Below are positions 1,745 through 47,732 of a stretch of 64,000 nucleotides of DNA, in pieces. A program made the translations under genes and the position numbers. The DNA is taken from assembly GCA_016841825.1 (NCBI GenBank), contig JAENYK010000003.1, positions 124,001 through 188,000 on the forward strand, read 5' to 3'. This stretch comes from Halothermothrix sp. Lineage in GTDB: Bacteria; Bacillota; Halanaerobiia; DY22613. A model generated the notes under the pieces. It worked only from the letters and a program-made list of their open reading frames with translations. It did no database searches and had not been told where the DNA came from. The stretch's first letter is position 1; the number at the start of each line of letters is the position of its first letter.

Positions 1745-3010
1745 TTAAGACTTCTTTTCCTCCTTATCCGAAACAGCCTTTACATCTTCATCAGCCTCGA
1801 CATCTCTATGCCAACTCTCTTTTTGAATCACTGCAGCTCCATTCATCTCTTCAATCTCTAAATTCTCAGACAAGATGTCATCTTCTGGTTCTTCATCTAT
1901 CTGCCAGTTCTCAGCTACATACATGTCTTCAATAGATTTTTTCGCAACAGTAGGGGCTGGTTCTTTAAAAGGTTCAGTCTGAGCTTGAGATTCGCTCTTG
2001 ATATCAACCTTCCAGTTAGTTAGCTTTGCTGCCAGGCGAGCATTCTGACCTTCTTTACCAATAGCTAAAGATAACTGATAGTCGGGTACTATCACCTGAG
2101 CAATTCCTTCCTCTTTAAAGATCTTGACCGAAATAACTTTAGCTGGACTCAAAGCATTCGAAACAAATACAGCTGGATCTTCACTCCACTCAACAATATC
2201 TATCTTCTCACCATTCAACTCATCAACAACAGCCTGAACCCGTATCCCCCTTGGACCAACACAGGCACCAACCGGATCAACATCTGGTTTGTGAGAGAAG
2301 ACCGCTATCTTGGAACGAGCTCCCGCTTCACGGGCTACAGCCTTCAACTCCACAACTCCATCATAAATCTCAGGAACCTCCAACTCAAACAGACGTTTTA
2401 ACAGCCCTGGATGAGTTCTAGAGACCATAATTCGTGGACCTTTTGTAGATTGTTTTACTTCCACAATATACACCTTAATCCGCTCATTACTCTCATACTT
2501 ATCTGTCTTCATCTGCTCTGATGGGATAAGTAAAGCTTCAGTTCTACCCAGATCAATCACCACATTCTGCTTACTCCATCTTTGAACAATTCCTGTCATA
2601 ATATCTCCCTCACGATTCTGGAATTCTTCAAAGATAATCCCACGTTCAGCCTCTCTGATCCTTTGCACAACCACCTGTTTGGCAGTCTGTGCAGCAATCC
2701 GCCCAAAATTAGCTGGTGTTACCTCAATCTCCACAATATCACCCAGCTCATAGTCGGGGTGCTTCTTTCTGGCATCAACTAAAGATATCTCTAATGTAGG
2801 ATCTTCCACATCTTCTACCACGTTCTTCCGAGAAAAAACCTTAACTTCACCACTAACCCGGTCAATTTCCACGCGGACATTCTGAGCTGATCCAAAATTG
2901 CGTTTATATGCTGAGTTTAAAGCTGCGTCAATAGCTTCAATTAATAGATCTTTCGGTATTCCTTTCTCTTTTGCAATATCTTCTAATGCCCTTAGAAACT
3001 CGACATTCAT
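1745..3010 (-). CDS. nusA: Transcription termination/antitermination factor NusA
   Basis: NusA binds RNA polymerase and nascent RNA and controls pausing and termination. The 421-residue protein has the N-terminal RNAP-binding domain (about 1-125), an S1 domain (about 134-200), KH1 with GPRG at 252-255 and KH2 with IGKEGQN near 317-323. It ends in a strongly acidic tail of about 75 residues, longer than in Bacillus NusA (about 371 residues) but lacking the acidic repeats of enterobacterial NusA. The ATG at 3010 has a good AGAGGAGG site. It is the second gene of the rimP-nusA-rnpM-ylxQ-infB operon. Confidence 0.97.
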   Translation of the reverse strand: MNVEFLRALEDIAKEKGIPKDLLIEAIDAALNSAYKRNFGSAQNVRVEIDRVSGEVKVFSRKNVVEDVEDPTLEISLVDARKKHPDYELGDIVEIEVTPANFGRIAAQTAKQVVVQRIREAERGIIFEEFQNREGDIMTGIVQRWSKQNVVIDLGRTEALLIPSEQMKTDKYESNERIKVYIVEVKQSTKGPRIMVSRTHPGLLKRLFELEVPEIYDGVVELKAVAREAGARSKIAVFSHKPDVDPVGACVGPRGIRVQAVVDELNGEKIDIVEWSEDPAVFVSNALSPAKVISVKIFKEEGIAQVIVPDYQLSLAIGKEGQNARLAAKLTNWKVDIKSESQAQTEPFKEPAPTVAKKSIEDMYVAENWQIDEEPEDDILSENLEIEEMNGAAVIQKESWHRDVEADEDVKAVSDKEEKKS

Positions 3011-3142
3011 TAAACTAACCTCCTCTAATTAAACTCAACTGATAGACGATACTCCTTTCACAATGCTGCCTCCTAAATCCTATAAAATGTTAAATGTTTT
3101 CTGTAAAAGACGATTGTGTTAATAACTTCCCATTAAGGGGTT

Positions 3143-3604
3143 TTAAAATTCAACTGCCAAATTAATCTTCGCAATCTGATCCCTGGGAATCTCCACACGC
3201 TCGTCATCAATTAATAGAGCTACTTTATCGTCTACCAGACCAACTAATTCAGCAGTAAATTTTTTCTTCTTGTTATATGTCGGTTTGTATGTAGAAATAT
3301 CAACATTGTATCCAGCGAAACGAACAAAATCTGGATCTTTCTTCAAAGGACGATCAATCCCTGGTGAAGAAACCTCTAATGTATAAGTTCCAGGAATAGG
3401 GTCTTGCTCATCTAATAGATCGCTTAATCTGGCACTGACATTCTGACAGTCGTCTAAGGTAACACCTTCATCCCTGTCAATGTAAACTCGCAAAATATAT
3501 TGACCACCTTCTTTTAAATATTCCACATCCACTAATTCCAGATTAAATTCTGTAGTGATAGGTTCTGTCATTTTAAAAACAATGTCAGCTAGATTATTAC
3601 TCAT
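3143..3604 (-). CDS. rimP: Ribosome maturation factor RimP
   Basis: RimP assists 30S subunit assembly. The 153-residue protein has the family core with VDVEYLKEGG, LRVYIDRDEGVTLDDC and the LEVSSPGIDRPLKK signature. It starts the nusA-infB operon, and a GGGGGG-type ribosome binding site precedes the ATG at 3604. About 430 bp separate it from the end of polC; a hairpin at 3725-3747 suggests polC transcription ends there and the rimP operon has its own promoter, although I could not pick a strong -35/-10 pair. Confidence 0.96.
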   Translation of the reverse strand: MSNNLADIVFKMTEPITTEFNLELVDVEYLKEGGQYILRVYIDRDEGVTLDDCQNVSARLSDLLDEQDPIPGTYTLEVSSPGIDRPLKKDPDFVRFAGYNVDISTYKPTYNKKKKFTAELVGLVDDKVALLIDDERVEIPRDQIAKINLAVEF

Positions 3605-4037: not shown

Positions 4038-7000
4038 CTATCCGGCAGTCTCTTCTGCACTAAACTGCATGGCTTCAAATAGAGAAAATTGATTCTTCTC
4101 TGGCATTCCTTCCAAAGCACCATGTTCTTTTAAAACTTCGATTACTGTTTTAGAAAGTCGGGCTCTAGAAGCCAAATCTTCATGTGAGATAAACTCTCCG
4201 TCTTCACGACAGACCGCAACATTTCTCGCTGCATTCTCCCCCAAACCCTGTAAGCTGACAAAAGGCGGAATCAGTTTAGAAGTTCCCTCAACAATTTGAA
4301 ATTTGACCGGGTCTGATTTGTATAGATCAACTCTCTCAAATTCAATCCCCCGTAACATAGCTTCATGAACCATCTCCAACACGGTTAAGATACCTTTTTC
4401 TTTGGTTGAGGCATCATTACCTTTCTCCTCAATCTCTTGTTTAATCTTAACCACATTAGCCAAACCTCTGGCAACCATCTGAGCATCAAAATCACTGGCT
4501 TTAATGGAGAAATAAGTCGCGTAAAAAGCTACAGGATAGTGAACTTTAAAGTAAGCAATTCGATAAGCCATCATTACATATGCAGCTGCGTGGGCTTTGG
4601 GAAACATATAGCTAATGGTATTACAGGAAGTAATATACCATGCAGGCACATTATGCTCACGCATAATCTCTTCCCATTCAGGAACAAGACCTTTACCTTT
4701 ACGTACACTCTCCATAATTTTAAAAGCAATACCGTTCTCCAGGCCTTTCGCAATTAGATAGTTCATAATATCATCCCGCACGGAGATAACCTCAGCCAAA
4801 GTAGCTATTTTATTTCTAACCAGATCTGCTGCATTATTTAACCAGACGTTAGTTCCATGGGATAGTCCAGAGATACGTACCAGTTCCGCAAAAGTCGTCG
4901 GTCTAGTCTCCTCTAACATACCTCTGACAAACGAAGTACCAAATTCTGGAATACCAAAGGTTCCAACCGTTGTCCCTAACTGTTCAGGAGTCAAATTCAA
5001 AGGTTCAGTTGTGGAAAAAAGTTTCATCGTCTCTTTATCATCCAGAGGAACTTCACCGGGATCAACCCCGGTAATATCCTGTAACATCCTGATAGTTGTC
5101 GGATCATCGTGCCCCAGTATATCTAACTTTAACAGATTGTCATGGATAGAATGATAATCAAAATGAGTTGTCCGCACATCAGAGTTCACATCATTTGCCG
5201 GGTGTTGAATAGGGCAAAAATCAAATACCTCTGTATCGCTAGGTACGATCATTAGACCCCCCGGATGCTGACCAGTAGTTCTGCGCACACCAGCACAACC
5301 TTTGACCAGGCGATTAATTTCAGCAGCTCTGGCTGGTATCCCTTTCTCGTCAAGATAATTCTTCACAAATCCATAAGCTGTGCGTTCAGCAACTGTAGAG
5401 ATTGTGCCAGCCCGAAATACATAGTCCCGACCAAAAAGTTCTTCAGTATATTTGTGAACAATCCCCTGATATTCTCCAGAAAAGTTTAGATCAATATCAG
5501 GTACTTTATCACCATAAAAGCCCATAAAAACCTCGAAAGGAATGTCATGACCTTCTTTTTTCAAAGGTCGACCACAATTCGGGCAGACTTTGTCAGGTAG
5601 ATCTGGCCCAGAAGGGAATGATCCATCAGTAATGAATTCACTATATTTACAATCACTATTGTTACAGATATAATGAGGAATCATTGGATTTACTTCTGTA
5701 ATCTCGCACATAGTAGCCACTAAAGATGAACCTACAGATCCCCGGGAGCCTACCAGATAGCCATCATCTAAAGATTTTTTCACAAGCTTATGGGAGATCA
5801 GATAGTTCACCGCATACCCGTTATTGATGATAGAATTTAACTCTCTATCCAGGCGCTTCTGGATAATCTCCGGCAGCGGATCACCATAGACCTCATGAGC
5901 TTTTTTATACGACATCTGGCGAATCTCTTCGTCTGCACCTTCGATTTTGGGTGGGAACAAACCTTCGGGAACTGGACGAAGATCTTCGATCATCTCTGCG
6001 ATCAGATTAGTATTCTCCACAACAATCTCCTGAGCGATCTCCGGTCCCAAATAATTGAACTCTTCCAACATCTCCTCAGTAGTTCTCATGTATAAAGGAG
6101 ATTGATCTTCAGCATCCTCAAAGCCTTTCCCAGTCATCAAAATTTCCCTATAAATAGAGTCTCTCTCTTCAATAAAATGCACATCTCCAGCAGCTACAAC
6201 TGGTTTATTCTCCTCTTTAGCCAGATTATATAGACGCCGGTTCAACTGCTTCACATCTTCCAGGGAGTTTAAGCGTCCATTCCGGACCAGAAAAGAATTA
6301 TTGCCTAGAGGCTGCAGTTCCACATAGTCATAAAAACTAATTATCTGTTTTAACTGCTCATCAGTAGCTCCACTCAAAGCTGCCTGATACAGCTGACCTG
6401 CTTCACAGGCTGTACCAATCAATAGACCCTCCCGTAAACTCTGGAGGAGACTTTTAGGAACTCGTGGGTTTCGATAATAATAGTCCAGATGAGCCTGGGA
6501 GACCAACTTATACAGATTTTTTAGACCAGTATAATTTTTTACCAGAATACACAGATGATAAGTCCGTAACCGTTTCCAATCAATATCTTTGCTTAAAGTA
6601 TTTATATCTTCAAGGAATTTAATCCCTTCTTTTTCTTGTCGTAAGATCTCCAGCAGATGTAATAATATCTGTTCAGTAGCCGCGGCATCATCGCAGGCTC
6701 GATGGTGATTTTCTAATGATACATTAAAATGATCCGCCAGAGTATTCAGTTTGTGATTTTTCAATTCGACCAACAAAGCCCTGGATAGATTCAAAGTATC
6801 CAAAATTTTGATTGTTGAAATTACCTCAGTTCTATCTGATTTTCTTAAAGCTGCCTGTAAGAAACTTAAATCAAAGGTAGCGTTATGAGCAACCAGAACA
6901 CTTTCCCGGAAGAAATCAATAAATTCTGGGATGATCTCTGCTATGGAAGGAGCATCTTCTACCATTGTTTGATCAATTCCTGTCAGTTCAGTTATCTCTG

Positions 7001-41426: not shown

Positions 41427-42047
41427 TCAGAAATCCTCTCTGCTGTTGAAAAACCAGATAGCCAGAAGTGAGGTCGCAAAATATACTATTAATAAAATTA
41501 CTGCAATCATAAACCCATGAGATAAAGTAAATTCGTCGATATTGTCCAATGGACCCAATAATCGATTAAAAAATTTTCCTACCTGGGGTATCAACAATGG
41601 GATAAATACCACGAAGAAAAGCAAACGCAGATAATTGCTGGCTTTGATATAACCGATTTTAAAGAACATAGCAAAATACGCCCCTACAAAGACCAACATT
41701 ATCGGTAAAACTATTGAAATAACGAGTAATCCTTGCTCTCCAGCTCCCAATCCCAGGATGTTTAGAGTAACAGCCACAGCAGCGAAGACTAGTGCAATAA
41801 CTAACTCTGAAAGATATTTGCTTACTACAATTGTCGATGTTTTTAAAGGCATTGTCTTTAAAAGAAATAACGTGTTATTCTTCTCCTCTACATAGGCTAA
41901 CCTCAATGATGTCATAACAATTCCAACACTTAAAAAAGTCTCTCCTGGAAAATTTGGAATAATGCAAAATACCAGATAAAGAACACCGAAGAAACCCACG
42001 TACTTAATCTGAGATGAAATATCTTTGACGATCAATTCTATCATCAT
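41427..42047 (-). CDS. ABC-2 type permease, 206 residues
   Basis: Six-helix membrane protein without a nucleotide-binding domain. The YVEEKNNTLFLLKTMPLKTSTIVVSKYL segment (key EKNNT, TMPL and SKY) matches the ABC-2 permease family often paired with YtrA-type GntR regulators. It is a paralogue of the first gene in this operon (43354-43971), which has the same EEKNNT and TLPLS motif. The start overlaps the ATPase stop by 4 bp. Exported substrate unknown. Confidence 0.82.
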   Translation of the reverse strand: MMIELIVKDISSQIKYVGFFGVLYLVFCIIPNFPGETFLSVGIVMTSLRLAYVEEKNNTLFLLKTMPLKTSTIVVSKYLSELVIALVFAAVAVTLNILGLGAGEQGLLVISIVLPIMLVFVGAYFAMFFKIGYIKASNYLRLLFFVVFIPLLIPQVGKFFNRLLGPLDNIDEFTLSHGFMIAVILLIVYFATSLLAIWFFNSREDF

Positions 42048-42922
42048 ACTTCCCCCCTAACATAGGCAATAAAAATCTCCTCTAAACCCACATCATTAAT
42101 CTCCATCTCACCTTTTAACCGCAGATGATACGCCTTTAATCTATCCAGACTATTAATAATTCCCACACATTGAGAACCTACATTACGAAAACTAATAAAC
42201 TCATGAGAGATATGGTCAATCTGCTCAGCGTTTTCTAAAGTAAACATAACTTTTTTATAATTTTCTAATACTAACTCTTTTTCTTCAGAAAAAATTATTT
42301 TGCCATCATCAATAAAAGTAATATAATCAGCCACTTTTTCTATATCCTGAGTGATGTGAGATGAGAAAAAGACTGATTTGTTTTCATCTTTAATCAATTC
42401 AAGAATTCCCTGTAAAACGTCATACCTGGCCGCTGGATCAAGACCAGATGTGGGTTCATCCAAAATCAATAGTTCTGGTTGATGTGCTAGCGCCAGAACA
42501 AATGACAGTTTGACTCGCATTCCTTTTGATAATTGCTTAACTTTTTTGGATTTGCTAATCTTAAACTTATTCAATAATTCAGTGCAATACTGATCATTCC
42601 AGGTACTGTAAATGTTTTTAAAAAAGTTAACAGTCCAACCAACACTCATTTCTTCATAAAAATATTGATTTTCACCTACAAAACCAATCTTATCTTTAAT
42701 ACCCATCTCATCCTCTTTCATCATCTGACCAAAGAGTTTGATCTCTCCTGTATCCCGATGAATCAGATCCAGAATTGCTTTGATCGTCGTAGTCTTGCCG
42801 GCACCATTTTGACCAATAAAACCCATGATATATCCTCTTGGCAATTCTAAATTTATATCATTTAATTTAAATTGAGGATAACTTTTCGACAAATTTCGAA
42901 CCTGTAATATTAACTCACTCAT
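42044..42922 (-). CDS. ABC transporter ATP-binding protein
   Basis: A 292-residue ABC ATPase: Walker A GQNGAGKTTT, the signature LSKGMRV, Walker B LLILDEPTSGLDP and the H-loop FFSSHITQD. The C-terminal 75 residues are the extension typical of exporters of the BcrA/YtrB kind. It energises the two permeases of the operon. Its ATG overlaps the gntR stop in TAATG. Confidence 0.92.
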   Translation of the reverse strand: MSELILQVRNLSKSYPQFKLNDINLELPRGYIMGFIGQNGAGKTTTIKAILDLIHRDTGEIKLFGQMMKEDEMGIKDKIGFVGENQYFYEEMSVGWTVNFFKNIYSTWNDQYCTELLNKFKISKSKKVKQLSKGMRVKLSFVLALAHQPELLILDEPTSGLDPAARYDVLQGILELIKDENKSVFFSSHITQDIEKVADYITFIDDGKIIFSEEKELVLENYKKVMFTLENAEQIDHISHEFISFRNVGSQCVGIINSLDRLKAYHLRLKGEMEINDVGLEEIFIAYVRGEV

Positions 42923-43302
42923 TATTTGTCCCTCCTATTGTATATATTTTTTACCATCTGAGTTATTTGATTCAGATCTAAACCCAGATCAATCGCTCTT
43001 TTTATCCCCTGTTCCAACATAGTATCCACCTCTTTTAGTTGAACCTCCTGGATCTCCTTCTTGTTCAATTCGCTGACAAAACTCCCTAAACCCTGTCGCG
43101 TGTAAATATAGCCTTCCTGTTCTAACTCTGCATAAGCTCTTTTTATTGTTATTACGCTGGTAGTCAACTCCTGAGCCAGACTCCTGATTGAGGGTAATGC
43201 CTCTCCACCAGACAACTGACCGTGTAATATCTGTACCTTAATCTGATCCACTACCTGTTGATATAGTGGTTTATCACTCTTCTGAGATAATGTGATTAAC
43301 AA
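42922..43302 (-). CDS. GntR family (YtrA-type) repressor
   Basis: A 126-residue regulator with an N-terminal winged helix (PLYQQVVDQIKVQILHGQLSGGEALPSIRSLAQEL, key residues P-L-Y, G, L-P-S-I-R-x-L-A) and only a short C-terminal dimerisation part of about 50 residues, the YtrA subfamily layout. It starts with TTG after AAAGGAGG. As the second gene of its own operon, whose promoter carries a long palindrome, it is almost surely an autorepressor. Such regulators often respond to envelope-active compounds. Confidence 0.9.
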   Translation of the reverse strand: MLITLSQKSDKPLYQQVVDQIKVQILHGQLSGGEALPSIRSLAQELTTSVITIKRAYAELEQEGYIYTRQGLGSFVSELNKKEIQEVQLKEVDTMLEQGIKRAIDLGLDLNQITQMVKNIYNRRDK

Positions 43303-43353
43303 ACCGTGCCCTCCTTTCTTATTGGGGCCTGGATAATAGACTACTATTCTGTG

Positions 43354-43971
43354 CTAATTAATTTCTTTCTTTTTAAAGAAATAGATTGAAAATAAAGAGG
43401 TGAGCAGATATAAACCAACTAATAGAATACTAATTAAACTCATCCAACCCCATCCTATATTCAGGTTTCCCAGAGAATTCCTCAACGCAAATGGAGACTT
43501 AAACATAGGAAACACCAGTACAAAAAATGCAATCAAATAGATCACAATAAAACTAGTGTATGCTTTCTGATAACCTTTATAGAAAAAGAGAATAAAGAAT
43601 ATACCCATCAACATTACCATAACTGACATAACCAAAATAAATTCTAATACCTGTGTAGGTTGAATAGGTATCTGAGTTCCAATTAATTTTTGAATAACCC
43701 CGAAGATTAAAAAGATCACTGTCACAATTAAAGTAGATACATATTTACTGAATACGAAGGTAGAAACACTTAACGGCAGTGTTTTAAACAAAACAAAAGT
43801 GTTATTTTTCTCTTCTAAATATGCTATTTGCATTGCAAACATAAAAATTCCTACAATCAGATAAGCATCTCCAGGTATCTCTGTCAAAAAATTGAACAAT
43901 ATAGACAACAATAATATTAGTACCAAAGTCTTCCAAAAAGCCTGTAAATCTTTGAATATTAATGATTTCAA
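43354..43971 (-). CDS. ABC-2 type permease, first gene of the GntR operon
   Basis: Six-helix membrane protein, 205 residues from a TTG start at 43971. I choose this start because GAGGAGG lies 5 bp upstream and the length then equals the paralogue at 41427-42047; the open frame extends to 44181 but runs through the promoter and operator. The AYLEEKNNTFVLFKTLPLSVSTFVFSKY segment parallels the paralogue. Two half-size permeases plus one ATPase give a complete exporter. Confidence 0.82.
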   Translation of the reverse strand: MKSLIFKDLQAFWKTLVLILLLSILFNFLTEIPGDAYLIVGIFMFAMQIAYLEEKNNTFVLFKTLPLSVSTFVFSKYVSTLIVTVIFLIFGVIQKLIGTQIPIQPTQVLEFILVMSVMVMLMGIFFILFFYKGYQKAYTSFIVIYLIAFFVLVFPMFKSPFALRNSLGNLNIGWGWMSLISILLVGLYLLTSLFSIYFFKKKEIN

Positions 43972-44045
43972 ACTATTCCTCCTCTCCCTCTGCGAACCAC
44001 TAATTTTCCTTATTATACCACTAAGCCCCCAATAAATCTCAAAGT

Positions 44046-44082
44046 GTTTATACTGTGTATACATTATATACACAGTATAAAC
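44046..44082. promoter_or_regulatory. GntR operator, 16-bp perfect palindrome
   Basis: Arms 44046-44061 and 44067-44082 form GTTTATACTGTGTATA and its exact complement around a 5-bp centre. The inner GTGTATA/TATACAC halves resemble YtrA-family operators (GTGTA...TACAC). It covers the -10 box and start region of the operon promoter, where a bound repressor would block transcription. Confidence 0.82.
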
Positions 44083-44102
44083 AGAATTTACACTTCTGTC
44101 AA
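44074..44102 (-). promoter_or_regulatory. Promoter of the GntR/ABC operon
   Basis: TTGACA (44097-44102), 17-bp spacer, TATACT (44074-44079), reading towards the permease gene at 43971. The -10 lies inside the operator palindrome. Confidence 0.85.
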
Positions 44103-44264
44103 GAGGAATTTTTATTTTTACTGAAAATATCTTAAAAATCTTCTCACTCGTTAATCTATAACACAAAATTCTCCAAAGCATGCAGGATTAAAAATAATCT
44201 TGTGGAATACCCAATATAAATAAGGGAGAAAGAGAATAATATACAAATGAAAGGAGTGATAGAA

Positions 44265-45698
44265 TTGCATAAACTAAAAGTCACCTTGACGACAATCTTG
44301 TTATTACTAATTATCAGTACAGGTACTTTTGCCTCATTCTATTATGAAATCCCCTATCAAAAAGAATTTTTGACAGTGGATGAAGATGGTACTATTTTAC
44401 TCCACAAGGAGTTTGCTTTTCACGTTCTGCCTTCATCAACTGAAGATGGCACAGAAGTCTGGGTAGGTCTTCCTACTGATGGAACAAGAGTAAGTGAAGC
44501 CTCTTACTCACTTAATGGTCAAAGCTCCACTCCTACATATGATGTTGAAGATGACAATGATCAATACTTTGTATCTTTCACCAGATTCCCAGCCATCAAA
44601 CCTGGGCAGACGGGTGAGTTCACCTTTACTGCAAAAATTCCTGATCTGGTATATTGGCTTGACAAAAAACAACTGGATAAAGCCCCTGAAGATCAGCTGG
44701 TCTCTATATCCTATATCCCTGCCTGGTGGGAAAAAGGAACTGTGAAAAATCTGGAGTTAACGATGAACTTGCCCCAGAGGATAAATCTTGAGGAATTGAC
44801 CATAACTAATAACCCTACATCTACCCAGATTGTTAATGGTGGTCTACAACTTGTCTGGAAATACTCTAATGTCAATCCAAATGAGAAATTACACCATGCA
44901 ATCACTCTTCCACGAGATTATTTTGCTGCAAATTTTACACCAAAACAGACCTGGATGTCGACTTCTACAATAATTCTGATTACTGTATTCATCCTCGTCA
45001 TCGTCCTGGGAATAACTATATTGATTGTTTATTCAGTCAAAAATCGACGTTACCAAACACCGATAATGTATATGAAGGGAGATAAAGCATATACCTCTTT
45101 TGACCCTATTGAAACTGCTCTCTTCTATAATTTATCGACCGATTTTATTAGTAAATTAATTATCGTTGGTTTAATGGAAAAGAGAGTTGTTCAATTTAAG
45201 GATAACCGATTGCAGAGATCTGCGACTCTGGAATCGCTTAATTGGTATGAAGAACTCTTTCTGGACAGTGTTGATCAAAATGTAGAGATCATTCCCGAAA
45301 AATGGAAAAAGAATTTCTCCGAAATGGTCAGTCATTTCTATGAAAAGATCAAAGGTTATTGCGGTCAGCAGACCATGTCCTACTATAACAATCTGCTAAA
45401 AAAAGAGGATTTCTCCGAGAATGAAGATCCCCGTTGGGCAATTTTGCAGGAACAATTAGCTAAGGGTACTTTTGAAAAACCTGATAATAAAGAACGAATC
45501 AGCAGCTATACTCCTGCATATCTTAATGCTTACATGCCTCTTTTCTACATGACTGTAATCAATTCTTCTTTGGCACAAGAAAATCACAAACAGTATAGTC
45601 ATGTGTTCCCCGGTGCTACTGGTGGTGGAGGAAACTCTGGCCCTGGTTGTGCCTGTGCTTGTGCCTGCGCCTGTGCCAGTAGTGGAGGTTGTACATAA
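44265..45698 (+). CDS. Membrane protein with a C-terminal (Cys-Ala)5 tail, likely radical SAM substrate
   Basis: A 477-residue protein. After a signal-like helix come an extracellular beta-rich region (about 30-225), one membrane helix (about 232-257, TIILITVFILVIVLGITILIVY) and a cytoplasmic part, a layout like DUF2207 proteins. The tail reads GGGGNSGPG, then CACACACACA, then SSGGCT: six Cys in the last 16 residues. I start at TTG 44265, 4 bp after AAAGGAGTGAT; ATG 44247 is possible. The stop overlaps the radical SAM start in TAATG, and that gene's ribosome site is inside the tail codons. The tail faces the cytoplasm, where the enzyme could modify it. Modification is inferred. Confidence 0.8.
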   Translation: MHKLKVTLTTILLLLIISTGTFASFYYEIPYQKEFLTVDEDGTILLHKEFAFHVLPSSTEDGTEVWVGLPTDGTRVSEASYSLNGQSSTPTYDVEDDNDQYFVSFTRFPAIKPGQTGEFTFTAKIPDLVYWLDKKQLDKAPEDQLVSISYIPAWWEKGTVKNLELTMNLPQRINLEELTITNNPTSTQIVNGGLQLVWKYSNVNPNEKLHHAITLPRDYFAANFTPKQTWMSTSTIILITVFILVIVLGITILIVYSVKNRRYQTPIMYMKGDKAYTSFDPIETALFYNLSTDFISKLIIVGLMEKRVVQFKDNRLQRSATLESLNWYEELFLDSVDQNVEIIPEKWKKNFSEMVSHFYEKIKGYCGQQTMSYYNNLLKKEDFSENEDPRWAILQEQLAKGTFEKPDNKERISSYTPAYLNAYMPLFYMTVINSSLAQENHKQYSHVFPGATGGGGNSGPGCACACACACASSGGCT

Positions 45699-46954
45699 TG
45701 CCTAAAACTCGATTCTCTCCGATTTACGGAGCTGTGGATAGCTTTAACTGGCATCTACGCCCTGAGAAACAGGATTCTAAAGTAGCAGGAATACTGATAA
45801 TTAACGGGGTTAAGGTCATCTACCTCAACCCCTCTGCTTATTTTTATCTCCATACTTACCTTAGTTTAAAACAAAATGTCAGGCGAACAGTGTGGAAATC
45901 AGCTTTTCATCTAGGTATCTCACCGAGAAGGGCCAGACAGGACTGGAACAAACTATACGCTGACCTGATACAGGCTTCAGACGGATGTTGTGAAGGAACC
46001 GGAATACAGGTTCTAAATTATGCTCAACCCTTCTCCACTCCTCTACGAGTAGATTTAGCCTTAACATATAACTGTAATAATGACTGTACTCACTGCTATG
46101 CCGGTGGTAACCGACAAACAGAGGAATTATCTACTCGAGAATGGCAAGATATCATTGATAAATTACATCAGATTGGAGTTCCCCAGGTAATCTTCACCGG
46201 CGGAGAAAGTCTATTACGTCCCGACTTAGAAATTCTGGTAAACCATGCGAAAAACCATAACATGATTACTGGACTAATCACCAATGGTCGATTGTTAACC
46301 TCTGAACGAGTAACGAACCTGGTGAAGTCTGGATTAGACTTCGTCCAGATAACTGTTGAATCAATTAAACCTGACGTTCATAATCAGATGGTAGGTGCTG
46401 ATGCTCTGGAGGAAACCCTTATGGGTGTACAAAAAGCCCTGAATTCTCCTTTACGGGTGACAACAAACACTACTATCACTCAATCTAATGCCGATACCCT
46501 ATTGCAGACACTAGAGTATCTGATGAAGATTGGCGTGAGTAGAGTTGGCATCAATGGGATTATACGGGCACACCGGGGCAAAAAAACAGATGGAATTGAT
46601 TACGGAGAGATGAAAGAACTCCTCTCAAAAGTTCTAACACTCTGTCAAAAGCAAGGAACCGAAATGATCTGGTTCACGCCTACCTGCTATCAAGAGCTAA
46701 ACCCTATCTCATTAGAGTTAGGCGTTAAGAGTTGTAGTGCAGCATCAATTGTTCTAACCATTGAACCTACTGGACGGGTGATACCCTGTCAATCTTATTT
46801 TGAAGGGTTGGGAGATGCCCGCTATGACTCCTTTGAAAAGATCTGGAACCATCCCCTGGCTATCCAACTTAGAGAGAGACAGTGGGTACAAGAATCTTGC
46901 CGCCAATGTGAAAACTTTACTAGCTGTGGTGGCGGGTGCCCGTTGGAGAAATAA
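45698..46954 (+). CDS. Radical SAM/SPASM protein with PqqD-like N-terminal domain
   Basis: A 418-residue predicted peptide maturase. Residues about 20-105 look like a PqqD/RRE winged-helix peptide-binding domain (GVKVIYLNPSAYFYLHTYL followed by a helical pair). The radical SAM core has C-x3-C-x2-C in NCNNDCTHCYAGG and the GGE motif in FTGGES. The C-terminus is SPASM-like: a Cys before LTIEPTGRVIPC, then C-x2-C-x5-C-x3-C in CRQCENFTSCGGGC, ligands for auxiliary clusters. Such enzymes install thioether or C-C links on peptides. It is coupled to the Cys-tail gene. Confidence 0.88.
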   Translation: MPKTRFSPIYGAVDSFNWHLRPEKQDSKVAGILIINGVKVIYLNPSAYFYLHTYLSLKQNVRRTVWKSAFHLGISPRRARQDWNKLYADLIQASDGCCEGTGIQVLNYAQPFSTPLRVDLALTYNCNNDCTHCYAGGNRQTEELSTREWQDIIDKLHQIGVPQVIFTGGESLLRPDLEILVNHAKNHNMITGLITNGRLLTSERVTNLVKSGLDFVQITVESIKPDVHNQMVGADALEETLMGVQKALNSPLRVTTNTTITQSNADTLLQTLEYLMKIGVSRVGINGIIRAHRGKKTDGIDYGEMKELLSKVLTLCQKQGTEMIWFTPTCYQELNPISLELGVKSCSAASIVLTIEPTGRVIPCQSYFEGLGDARYDSFEKIWNHPLAIQLRERQWVQESCRQCENFTSCGGGCPLEK

Positions 46955-47162: not shown

Positions 47163-47732
47163 ATGAAGACTTTTAAAAGATTATCTATTTTATTTTGTCT
47201 TTTATCAATCTTGCTCATGGTAACAGGATGTGGAATGTTACAAAAGGAAGAATTTGATGGCAAGCGGATAGGTATAATCCTTAATTATCAGATGTCAACT
47301 GATTCTAAGATTAAAATCAATGATTTTACAAATTTTACTGAAAAAATTGCAGAAAGAATAGTCAAAAGATTAGATAATATGGCTGTGACCATATTAGATC
47401 AAAAAATACCCGATGAGGCATCTCTGAAAGAATTAGCAGAGAGGAATAACTTTGATTACTTACTAATTGCTAATTTTTCAGATATTTCTTATACCTTAGA
47501 ATTTAAAATCAATTTAGGCAAAAGTACACTAATTACTAAGCGTGTATCAAGCAGCTCCAATACACTAGACTACACTCTGTATAGTATCAACCCTTTTCAG
47601 CGGATTCATACCGGAACGAAAATCGGTAAATATGTCTCAACAACCAGATCACAGACAAAATCCTTTGATAGAAGTAAGATTATCCAAAACGCTTTGTTCC
47701 ACTCAATCTCGTTAACTGGTATGGGAATATAA
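47163..47732 (+). CDS. Predicted lipoprotein, unknown function
   Basis: A 189-residue protein with a lipoprotein signal peptide: positively charged MKTFKR, a hydrophobic stretch and the lipobox VTGC with Cys23. The mature part (DGKRIGIILNYQM, a repeat of predicted strands and helices, KLVSTTRSQTKSF-like C-terminus) matches no family I recognise. It probably sits on the outer face of the membrane. It follows copy 2 of the structured element and ends before a strong terminator. Nearness to the radical SAM pair may be coincidental. Confidence 0.75.
   Translation: MKTFKRLSILFCLLSILLMVTGCGMLQKEEFDGKRIGIILNYQMSTDSKIKINDFTNFTEKIAERIVKRLDNMAVTILDQKIPDEASLKELAERNNFDYLLIANFSDISYTLEFKINLGKSTLITKRVSSSSNTLDYTLYSINPFQRIHTGTKIGKYVSTTRSQTKSFDRSKIIQNALFHSISLTGMGI

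Follow-up and report, generated by a model that had tools for sequence, protein, structure and literature searches.

Does a radical SAM enzyme modify the tail of the membrane protein encoded directly in front of it? This question is raised by a two-gene locus in the window, a 64,000-nucleotide stretch of contig C41 from a 5.08 Mb genome, in which a gene ending in alternating Cys and Ala codons runs into the gene of a radical SAM/SPASM enzyme (Table 1). A sequence-only reading of the locus had proposed that the enzyme performs RiPP-like chemistry on this Cys tail. The linkage of enzyme and tail was borne out across genomes, in 71 of 72 cases; that the tail is modified, and in what way, we infer.

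The C-terminal end of the 477-residue protein is GCACACACACASSGGCT, with residues 462-477 reading CACACACACASSGGCT. Six of its seven cysteines fall within these last 16 residues, the seventh being C366, and a Gly-rich hinge precedes the tail, in agreement with the initial reading. The gene was assigned a TTG start, directly 5' of which lies AAAGGAGTG; the upstream ATG at 44247 therefore falls at the ribosome site. The stop codon overlaps the ATG of the enzyme (TAATG), and the ribosome site of the enzyme gene lies within tail codons, both as originally described. Scans for promoters and terminators at the locus gave nothing clear.

Table 1. Features of the membrane protein and enzyme genes, in window coordinates.
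Feature	Position	Strand	Evidence
Ribosome binding site of membrane protein gene (probable), within AAATGAAAGGAGTG	44248..44256	+	read from sequence
Tail-bearing membrane protein gene, 477 aa, TTG start	44265..45698	+	sequence, hydropathy, charges, AlphaFold2
Gly-rich linker TGGGGNSGPG	45618..45647	+	read from sequence
(Cys-Ala)5 repeat, aa 462-471	45648..45677	+	sequence; invariant in type A and in 21 aligned members of three types
Tail end SSGGCT, aa 472-477, last Cys C476	45678..45695	+	sequence and type A comparison
Ribosome binding site GGAGG of radical SAM gene, in Ser-Gly-Gly codons of the tail	45684..45688	+	read from sequence
Radical SAM/SPASM enzyme gene, 418 aa, start overlapping upstream stop (TAATG)	45698..46954	+	sequence, Pfam, AlphaFold2
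Enzyme N-terminal domain, aa 1-94, predicted RiPP recognition element (RRE; PqqD-like)	45698..45979	+	AlphaFold2, Foldseek, profile, Pfam in homologues
Radical SAM core domain, aa 122-274, CX3CX2C at 126/130/133	46061..46519	+	Pfam, sequence
SPASM domain, aa 346-418, Cys 346, 364, 401, 404, 410, 414	46733..46951	+	Pfam, alignment, sequence

The tail is kept while the rest of the membrane protein drifts. The same pair is found in three genomes of the window's phylum that belong to other families; these type A membrane proteins are 42-45% identical to that of the window and their enzymes 51-55%. Across the four type A membrane proteins, 14 of the 16 tail columns are invariant, and with a fifth member found by profile search, all five end in [SG][SG]GGCT. 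In an alignment of three tail types (21 members, 17-23% identity), 12 columns are invariant, and 11 of these fall in the tail. A chance origin was ruled out at about 6e-17 per position for (CA)5, given the frequencies of Cys (0.9%) and Ala (6.3%) in the window's long ORFs. A DNA microsatellite or recent repeat expansion was also ruled out as the origin, because the third codon positions of the repeat units differ in 58% of comparisons across 80 distinct tails, only one of which has identical units; the zero difference at codon positions 1-2 is by construction, the tails having been picked by their Cys-Ala letters.

The tails also share a residue pattern. In types A to E, nearly every Cys has Ala or Val directly after it, and mostly Ala, Ser or Gly before it. 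At Cys +3, Ala, Ser and Gly predominate, although types B, D and E contain exceptions. Tail length, spacing and side residues vary between members (CA, CASS, CAHSS, CVSC, HSAC), and in most homologues a Gly-rich linker precedes the tail.

Searches with a single window protein returned no related loci, because the families are too diverged. For a tail-first search, 85,000 species genomes were scanned for codons of CACACACAC. Most matches listed were microsatellites or wrong frames in GC-rich genomes, and these artefacts were excluded on the basis of ORF length and context. At least 17 loci held genuine long genes ending in Cys-Ala tails. In Heimdallarchaeota, Methanomassiliicoccales, another Thermoplasmatota and a Chloroflexi the motif ...(CA)nGGGR stands at the very end of the protein, and in Lachnospiraceae and other Clostridia the form ...(CA)nGGGRAGC[ST]xKDFY is followed by a short extension. 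In 16 of the 17 listed loci the tail gene adjoins a radical SAM gene, complete or truncated; the remaining locus (L072) is cut by the end of the retrieved stretch.

An enzyme-first search was based on a profile of 17 enzymes that contains no tail sequence, which avoids circularity. About 1,240 genomes were covered (250 Lachnospiraceae, 399 from the window's phylum, 301 Chloroflexota and 293 Thermoplasmatota), and a match at E<=1e-120 was taken as a close relative. This gave 72 close relatives (Lachnospiraceae 22, window's phylum 15, Chloroflexota 20, Thermoplasmatota 15). In 71 of them (22/22, 14/15, 20/20 and 15/15, respectively), the gene directly beside that of the enzyme encodes a membrane protein whose tail is a Cys-(Ala/Val) repeat; without the nine that are the profile's own rows, the figure is 62 of 63. 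Because genomes within these groups are related, the counts do not represent independent events, but they come from both Bacteria and Archaea. In the sole exception (L173/L227), the contig stops 344 residues into the adjoining membrane protein, before the tail would be reached. No close relative was found beside a tail-less membrane protein, the arrangement named beforehand as contradicting the proposal. As a control, 20 regions with other radical SAM genes from the genome of the window were inspected, and none had an ORF containing C[ASGV]C[ASGV]C. The pairing is nearly obligatory in Bacillota, Chloroflexota and Thermoplasmatota, is present in at least one Heimdallarchaeota genome, and occurs in both gene orders.

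Below the threshold for close relatives, five weaker enzyme matches (L179, L180, L181, L201 and L203; E 1e-79 to 1e-94) stand beside (His-Ser-Ala-Cys)n tails, whose membrane proteins have the same layout as the Cys-Ala-tailed ones. In this type, Cys is followed mostly by His or Val and the +3 residue is mostly Ala. Tails of the (His-Ser-Ala-Cys)n kind beside deeper-branching enzymes of the same group were also recorded at L222, L223, L224 and L203.

In a maximum-likelihood tree, the tail-associated enzymes form one clade (support 100/98) apart from 12 other radical SAM enzymes of the window genome, which served as the outgroup and include several long branches. Each tail type has its own enzyme group, with weaker support for type B, and the (HSAC)n enzymes branch first within the tail-associated group, given that outgroup. 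Enzyme and tail very likely belong together functionally.

The enzyme passes the general Pfam cut-offs for Radical_SAM (E=2e-25) and SPASM (PF13186, E=3.5e-9), as anticipated from its SPASM-like cysteines. The radical SAM motif (C126/C130/C133, CX3CX2C) is invariant in 17 homologues, and PF13186 is matched in 17 of 17 enzyme members. An AlphaFold2 model (pLDDT 88.6, pTM 0.89) predicts an RRE-like, radical SAM and SPASM fold, in which residues 9-94 form four strands then three helices, followed by the radical SAM barrel and a C-terminal SPASM region. The PqqD/RRE-like N-terminus ascribed to the enzyme at the outset was recovered in part: no Pfam detection was obtained in the window enzyme itself, where the HMM stays below detection, but PqqD (PF05402) is above the Pfam cut-off in three homologues (L082, L020 and L183) and the predicted fold agrees.

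Structural comparison places the enzyme close to SkfB. A Foldseek search with the model ranked SkfB first (PDB 6efn, E=1.8e-18, 403 columns) and SuiB next, with EpeE and anSME also among the matches. The enzyme profile likewise found SkfB as its best match in the PDB (E=1.1e-35, positions 32-398, RRE included); the match to CteB covers only the part after the RRE. The window enzyme falls under every curated cut-off of the named NCBIfam radical SAM equivalogs (PqqE, NirJ2, SkfB, StsB, PapB, GeoRSP and ACGX), its best match being TIGR04055 at 139 bits against a cut-off of 500. Among the best 25 families listed for each homologue, no equivalog cut-off was reached.

SkfB, the sporulation killing factor sactisynthase, has the same order of RRE, radical SAM and Twitch/SPASM domains and acts on Cys of a ribosomal product, as is presumed here. 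It carries a Twitch domain with one auxiliary cluster (PMC6231123). The window enzyme retains most of the Cys expected for two, whereas most second-cluster Cys are missing from the aligned type C enzymes, whose domain is reduced and Twitch-like as in SkfB. The substrates also differ: SkfA is a small exported peptide, whereas the presumed substrate here is the C-terminal tail of a membrane protein of 300-570 residues. The small dedicated precursor of sactipeptides, with its leader and Cys core, is absent, and the only Cys-rich partner found is the 477-residue membrane protein. The SCIFF/ranthipeptide maturases (CteB, PapB) and the ACGX-repeat system (TIGR04340) also pair SPASM radical SAM enzymes with regularly spaced Cys; unlike here, their substrates are small peptides (general knowledge; PMC8172795). 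The window enzyme or its relatives score far below the NCBIfam cut-offs of those models. The tail is likely the substrate of the enzyme.

The membrane protein as a whole reaches no Pfam or NCBIfam family cut-off, and some relatives match zinc-ribbon models only. Hydropathy and an AlphaFold2 model (pLDDT 83.4; pTM 0.50, so that domain placement is uncertain) indicate an N-terminal signal/TM segment, a beta ectodomain (residues 27-216) and a TM helix (residues 233-261). Residues 281-447 are predicted to be cytosolic, with a winged-helix-like part (281-318) and a helical part, before the Gly-rich linker and a disordered Cys-Ala tail. For most members, hydropathy and charge favour a topology with the N-terminus inside, the domain outside and the tail in the cytoplasm. 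A zinc ribbon lies between the TM helix and the tail in many type C members, as expected of a cytoplasmic segment. The cytoplasmic orientation originally suggested for the tail fits this charge and zinc-ribbon evidence, as a prediction. One Thermoplasmatota tail protein (L231:4063-5487) carries two TFIIB-type zinc ribbons (PF13453) in this position. In Foldseek, the ectodomain resembles ribophorin I and the N-domain of M1 peptidases with low TM-scores; this was treated as a resemblance of ectodomain folds and set aside as a guide to function.

DUF2207 proteins have an N-terminal TM segment, an ectodomain, a second TM segment and a Gly-rich C-terminus, a layout like that of the window protein. 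To our knowledge, none has a Cys tail or a radical SAM partner. The label "DUF2207-like" first given to the window protein had to be dropped: it has no HMM match, and its relatives all score under the Pfam cut-off, with sub-threshold matches to PF09972 in 5 of 21 members (best 18.7 bits, L047, against a gathering score of 24.4). In Streptococcus mutans, a protein of the DUF2207 family influences stress tolerance (PMC10457818).

The nearest known analogue is found among TIGR04222 membrane proteins, subsets of which have Cys-rich C-termini and are proposed MNIO (DUF692) substrates (PMC12452194). There too, a membrane protein with a low-complexity, Cys-rich C-terminus lies beside a RiPP-type modifying enzyme. 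That system differs in that the enzyme is an MNIO and not a radical SAM protein, that the membrane protein has several TM segments, and that the tail is predicted to be extracytoplasmic; the pairing is also loose, in that roughly one genome in three has no MNIO, and the system occurs mostly in Actinomycetota (PMC12452194). The pair described here is therefore distinct in enzyme class, predicted membrane side and tightness of pairing. The TIGR04222 HMM, with its cut-off of 43 bits, gave no match to the window membrane protein and matched two homologues weakly, at 17.5 and 16.2 bits, and no MNIO gene is among the immediate neighbours of the window pair. Membership in DUF2207, TIGR04222 or the NCBIfam radical SAM equivalogs was ruled out at the curated cut-offs.

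Together, the two genes would form a protein-maturation pair. The membrane protein would offer its disordered Cys-Ala tail to the cytoplasm, and the enzyme would recognise the protein through its N-terminal RRE-like domain, probably by binding a short region before the Gly-rich linker. The SAM cluster would serve to abstract hydrogen from tail residues, and at the SPASM/Twitch auxiliary cluster or clusters Cys sulfurs would be joined to backbone carbons, most likely as sactionine-type thioethers. The modified tail may then stay on the membrane protein and serve on the cytoplasmic side as an element for metal, redox or partner binding, and the outer domain could be a sensor; a role in metal or redox sensing is a guess. 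Taken as a whole, this reading, in which the cytoplasmic tail is acted on by the enzyme and Cys thioethers are the most likely outcome, appears reasonably probable.

The form of the rings can be proposed by analogy. Known sactionine bonds include Cys5-Ala12 of ruminococcin C1 (RumC1) and the unnested Cys31-Gly34 and Cys25-Ser28 of streptosactin (PMC8172795). Because of these precedents and the tail pattern, a chain of thioethers from Cys(i) to the small residue (Ala, Ser or Gly) at i+3 is proposed; this streptosactin-like arrangement would fit most tails, but some Cys of types B, D, E and (HSAC)n do not conform to it. One mechanism for all members is not assured, as type C enzymes are without most second-cluster Cys.

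SPASM enzymes also epimerise residues, form C-C or ether bonds and oxidise Cys, and the sequence therefore does not fix the reaction. The chance of a thioether-linked product is about even. A modified tail of another kind, in which Ala or Ser is epimerised, Cys is oxidised or a metal-binding heterocycle is formed to give a metal-chelating tail, seems unlikely. Bufferins, which carry metal-chelating thiooxazoles made by MNIOs, illustrate such an outcome, and the MNIO/TIGR04222 analogue has Cys/Gly/Ser-rich C-termini beside an oxidative enzyme. EpeE and anSME, among the structural matches, bring in epimerase and SPASM radical SAM enzymes, and dense, evenly spaced Cys would suit metal binding, as would the His present in the tails of deep-branching members. 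Against this, the closest solved structure by both sequence and fold is the thioether-forming SkfB.

The adjacency could instead reflect a tail that helps the enzyme. An unmodified tail would then bind an Fe-S cluster or metal and serve as membrane anchor, electron donor or cluster source, the real substrate lying elsewhere. Alternating Cys can bind metal clusters, and a physical complex would also give strict pairing. We consider this improbable: the RRE-like domain and the architecture shared with SkfB suggest that the enzyme acts on a peptide, the variable length, spacing and side residues of the tails resemble a core peptide rather than one fixed cluster site, and no third gene is conserved across the inspected loci. 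The enzyme might, finally, adjoin an unmodified metal- or redox-sensing tail through operon history only. This reading is very hard to reconcile with 71 of 72 pairings in two domains of life, both gene orders, tail types that match enzyme clades and the tail-free control regions, and its probability is accordingly slight.

The open-access papers searched yielded no description of the enzyme-tail pair or of the tail motif, with most subscription papers and bioRxiv preprints outside this scope; among them, work on TIGR04222, MNIO and DUF2207 supplies analogues only. Neither protein is covered by a specific Pfam or NCBIfam model. Radical SAM RiPP mining seeks mostly short precursors, and a substrate formed by the last 16-50 residues of a 300-570-residue membrane protein is therefore easily missed. 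The evidence is evenly poised on whether, in bacteria, Thermoplasmatota and Heimdallarchaeota, a radical SAM enzyme gives a membrane protein a lasting multi-thioether (or metal-binding) element by converting its cytoplasmic Cys-Ala tail. If so, RiPP chemistry would mature a resident membrane protein, perhaps a sensor, instead of making a secreted peptide, and together with the MNIO/TIGR04222 case this would suggest that two unrelated enzyme classes were recruited to decorate Cys-rich membrane-protein tails. Provided that the tail is modified, such maturation would also take place in gut and rumen Lachnospiraceae, and many natural enzyme-substrate pairs with simple repeats would be available for studies of thioether chemistry.

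Several observations concern the surroundings of the pair. In the window, divergent neighbours (41427-44181, minus strand) encode a GntR regulator, an ABC ATPase and two ABC-2 permeases, none of which was seen at the other inspected tail loci. Downstream (47163-47732, plus strand) lies the gene of a putative lipoprotein of 189 residues, for which no Pfam family reached its cut-off. The inspected loci have no protease, exporter or other RiPP gene in common. A diverged relative of the membrane protein (L226, G433:C80; E=3e-40) is cut by a contig end. At the Lachnospiraceae locus L050, two different tail proteins (2001-3248, minus strand; 4855-6120, plus strand) flank one enzyme gene, and a single enzyme may serve two substrates there. 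Chloroflexota matches near 1e-60 come from a second radical SAM paralogue that has diverged and mostly adjoins the first; it was recorded beside or near the first at L185, L192-L196, L198-L200 and L229:5702-6844. This paralogue has lost SPASM Cys ('PAQG' against 'PCQS' in the first) and matches Radical_SAM weakly; it may act as a partner subunit.
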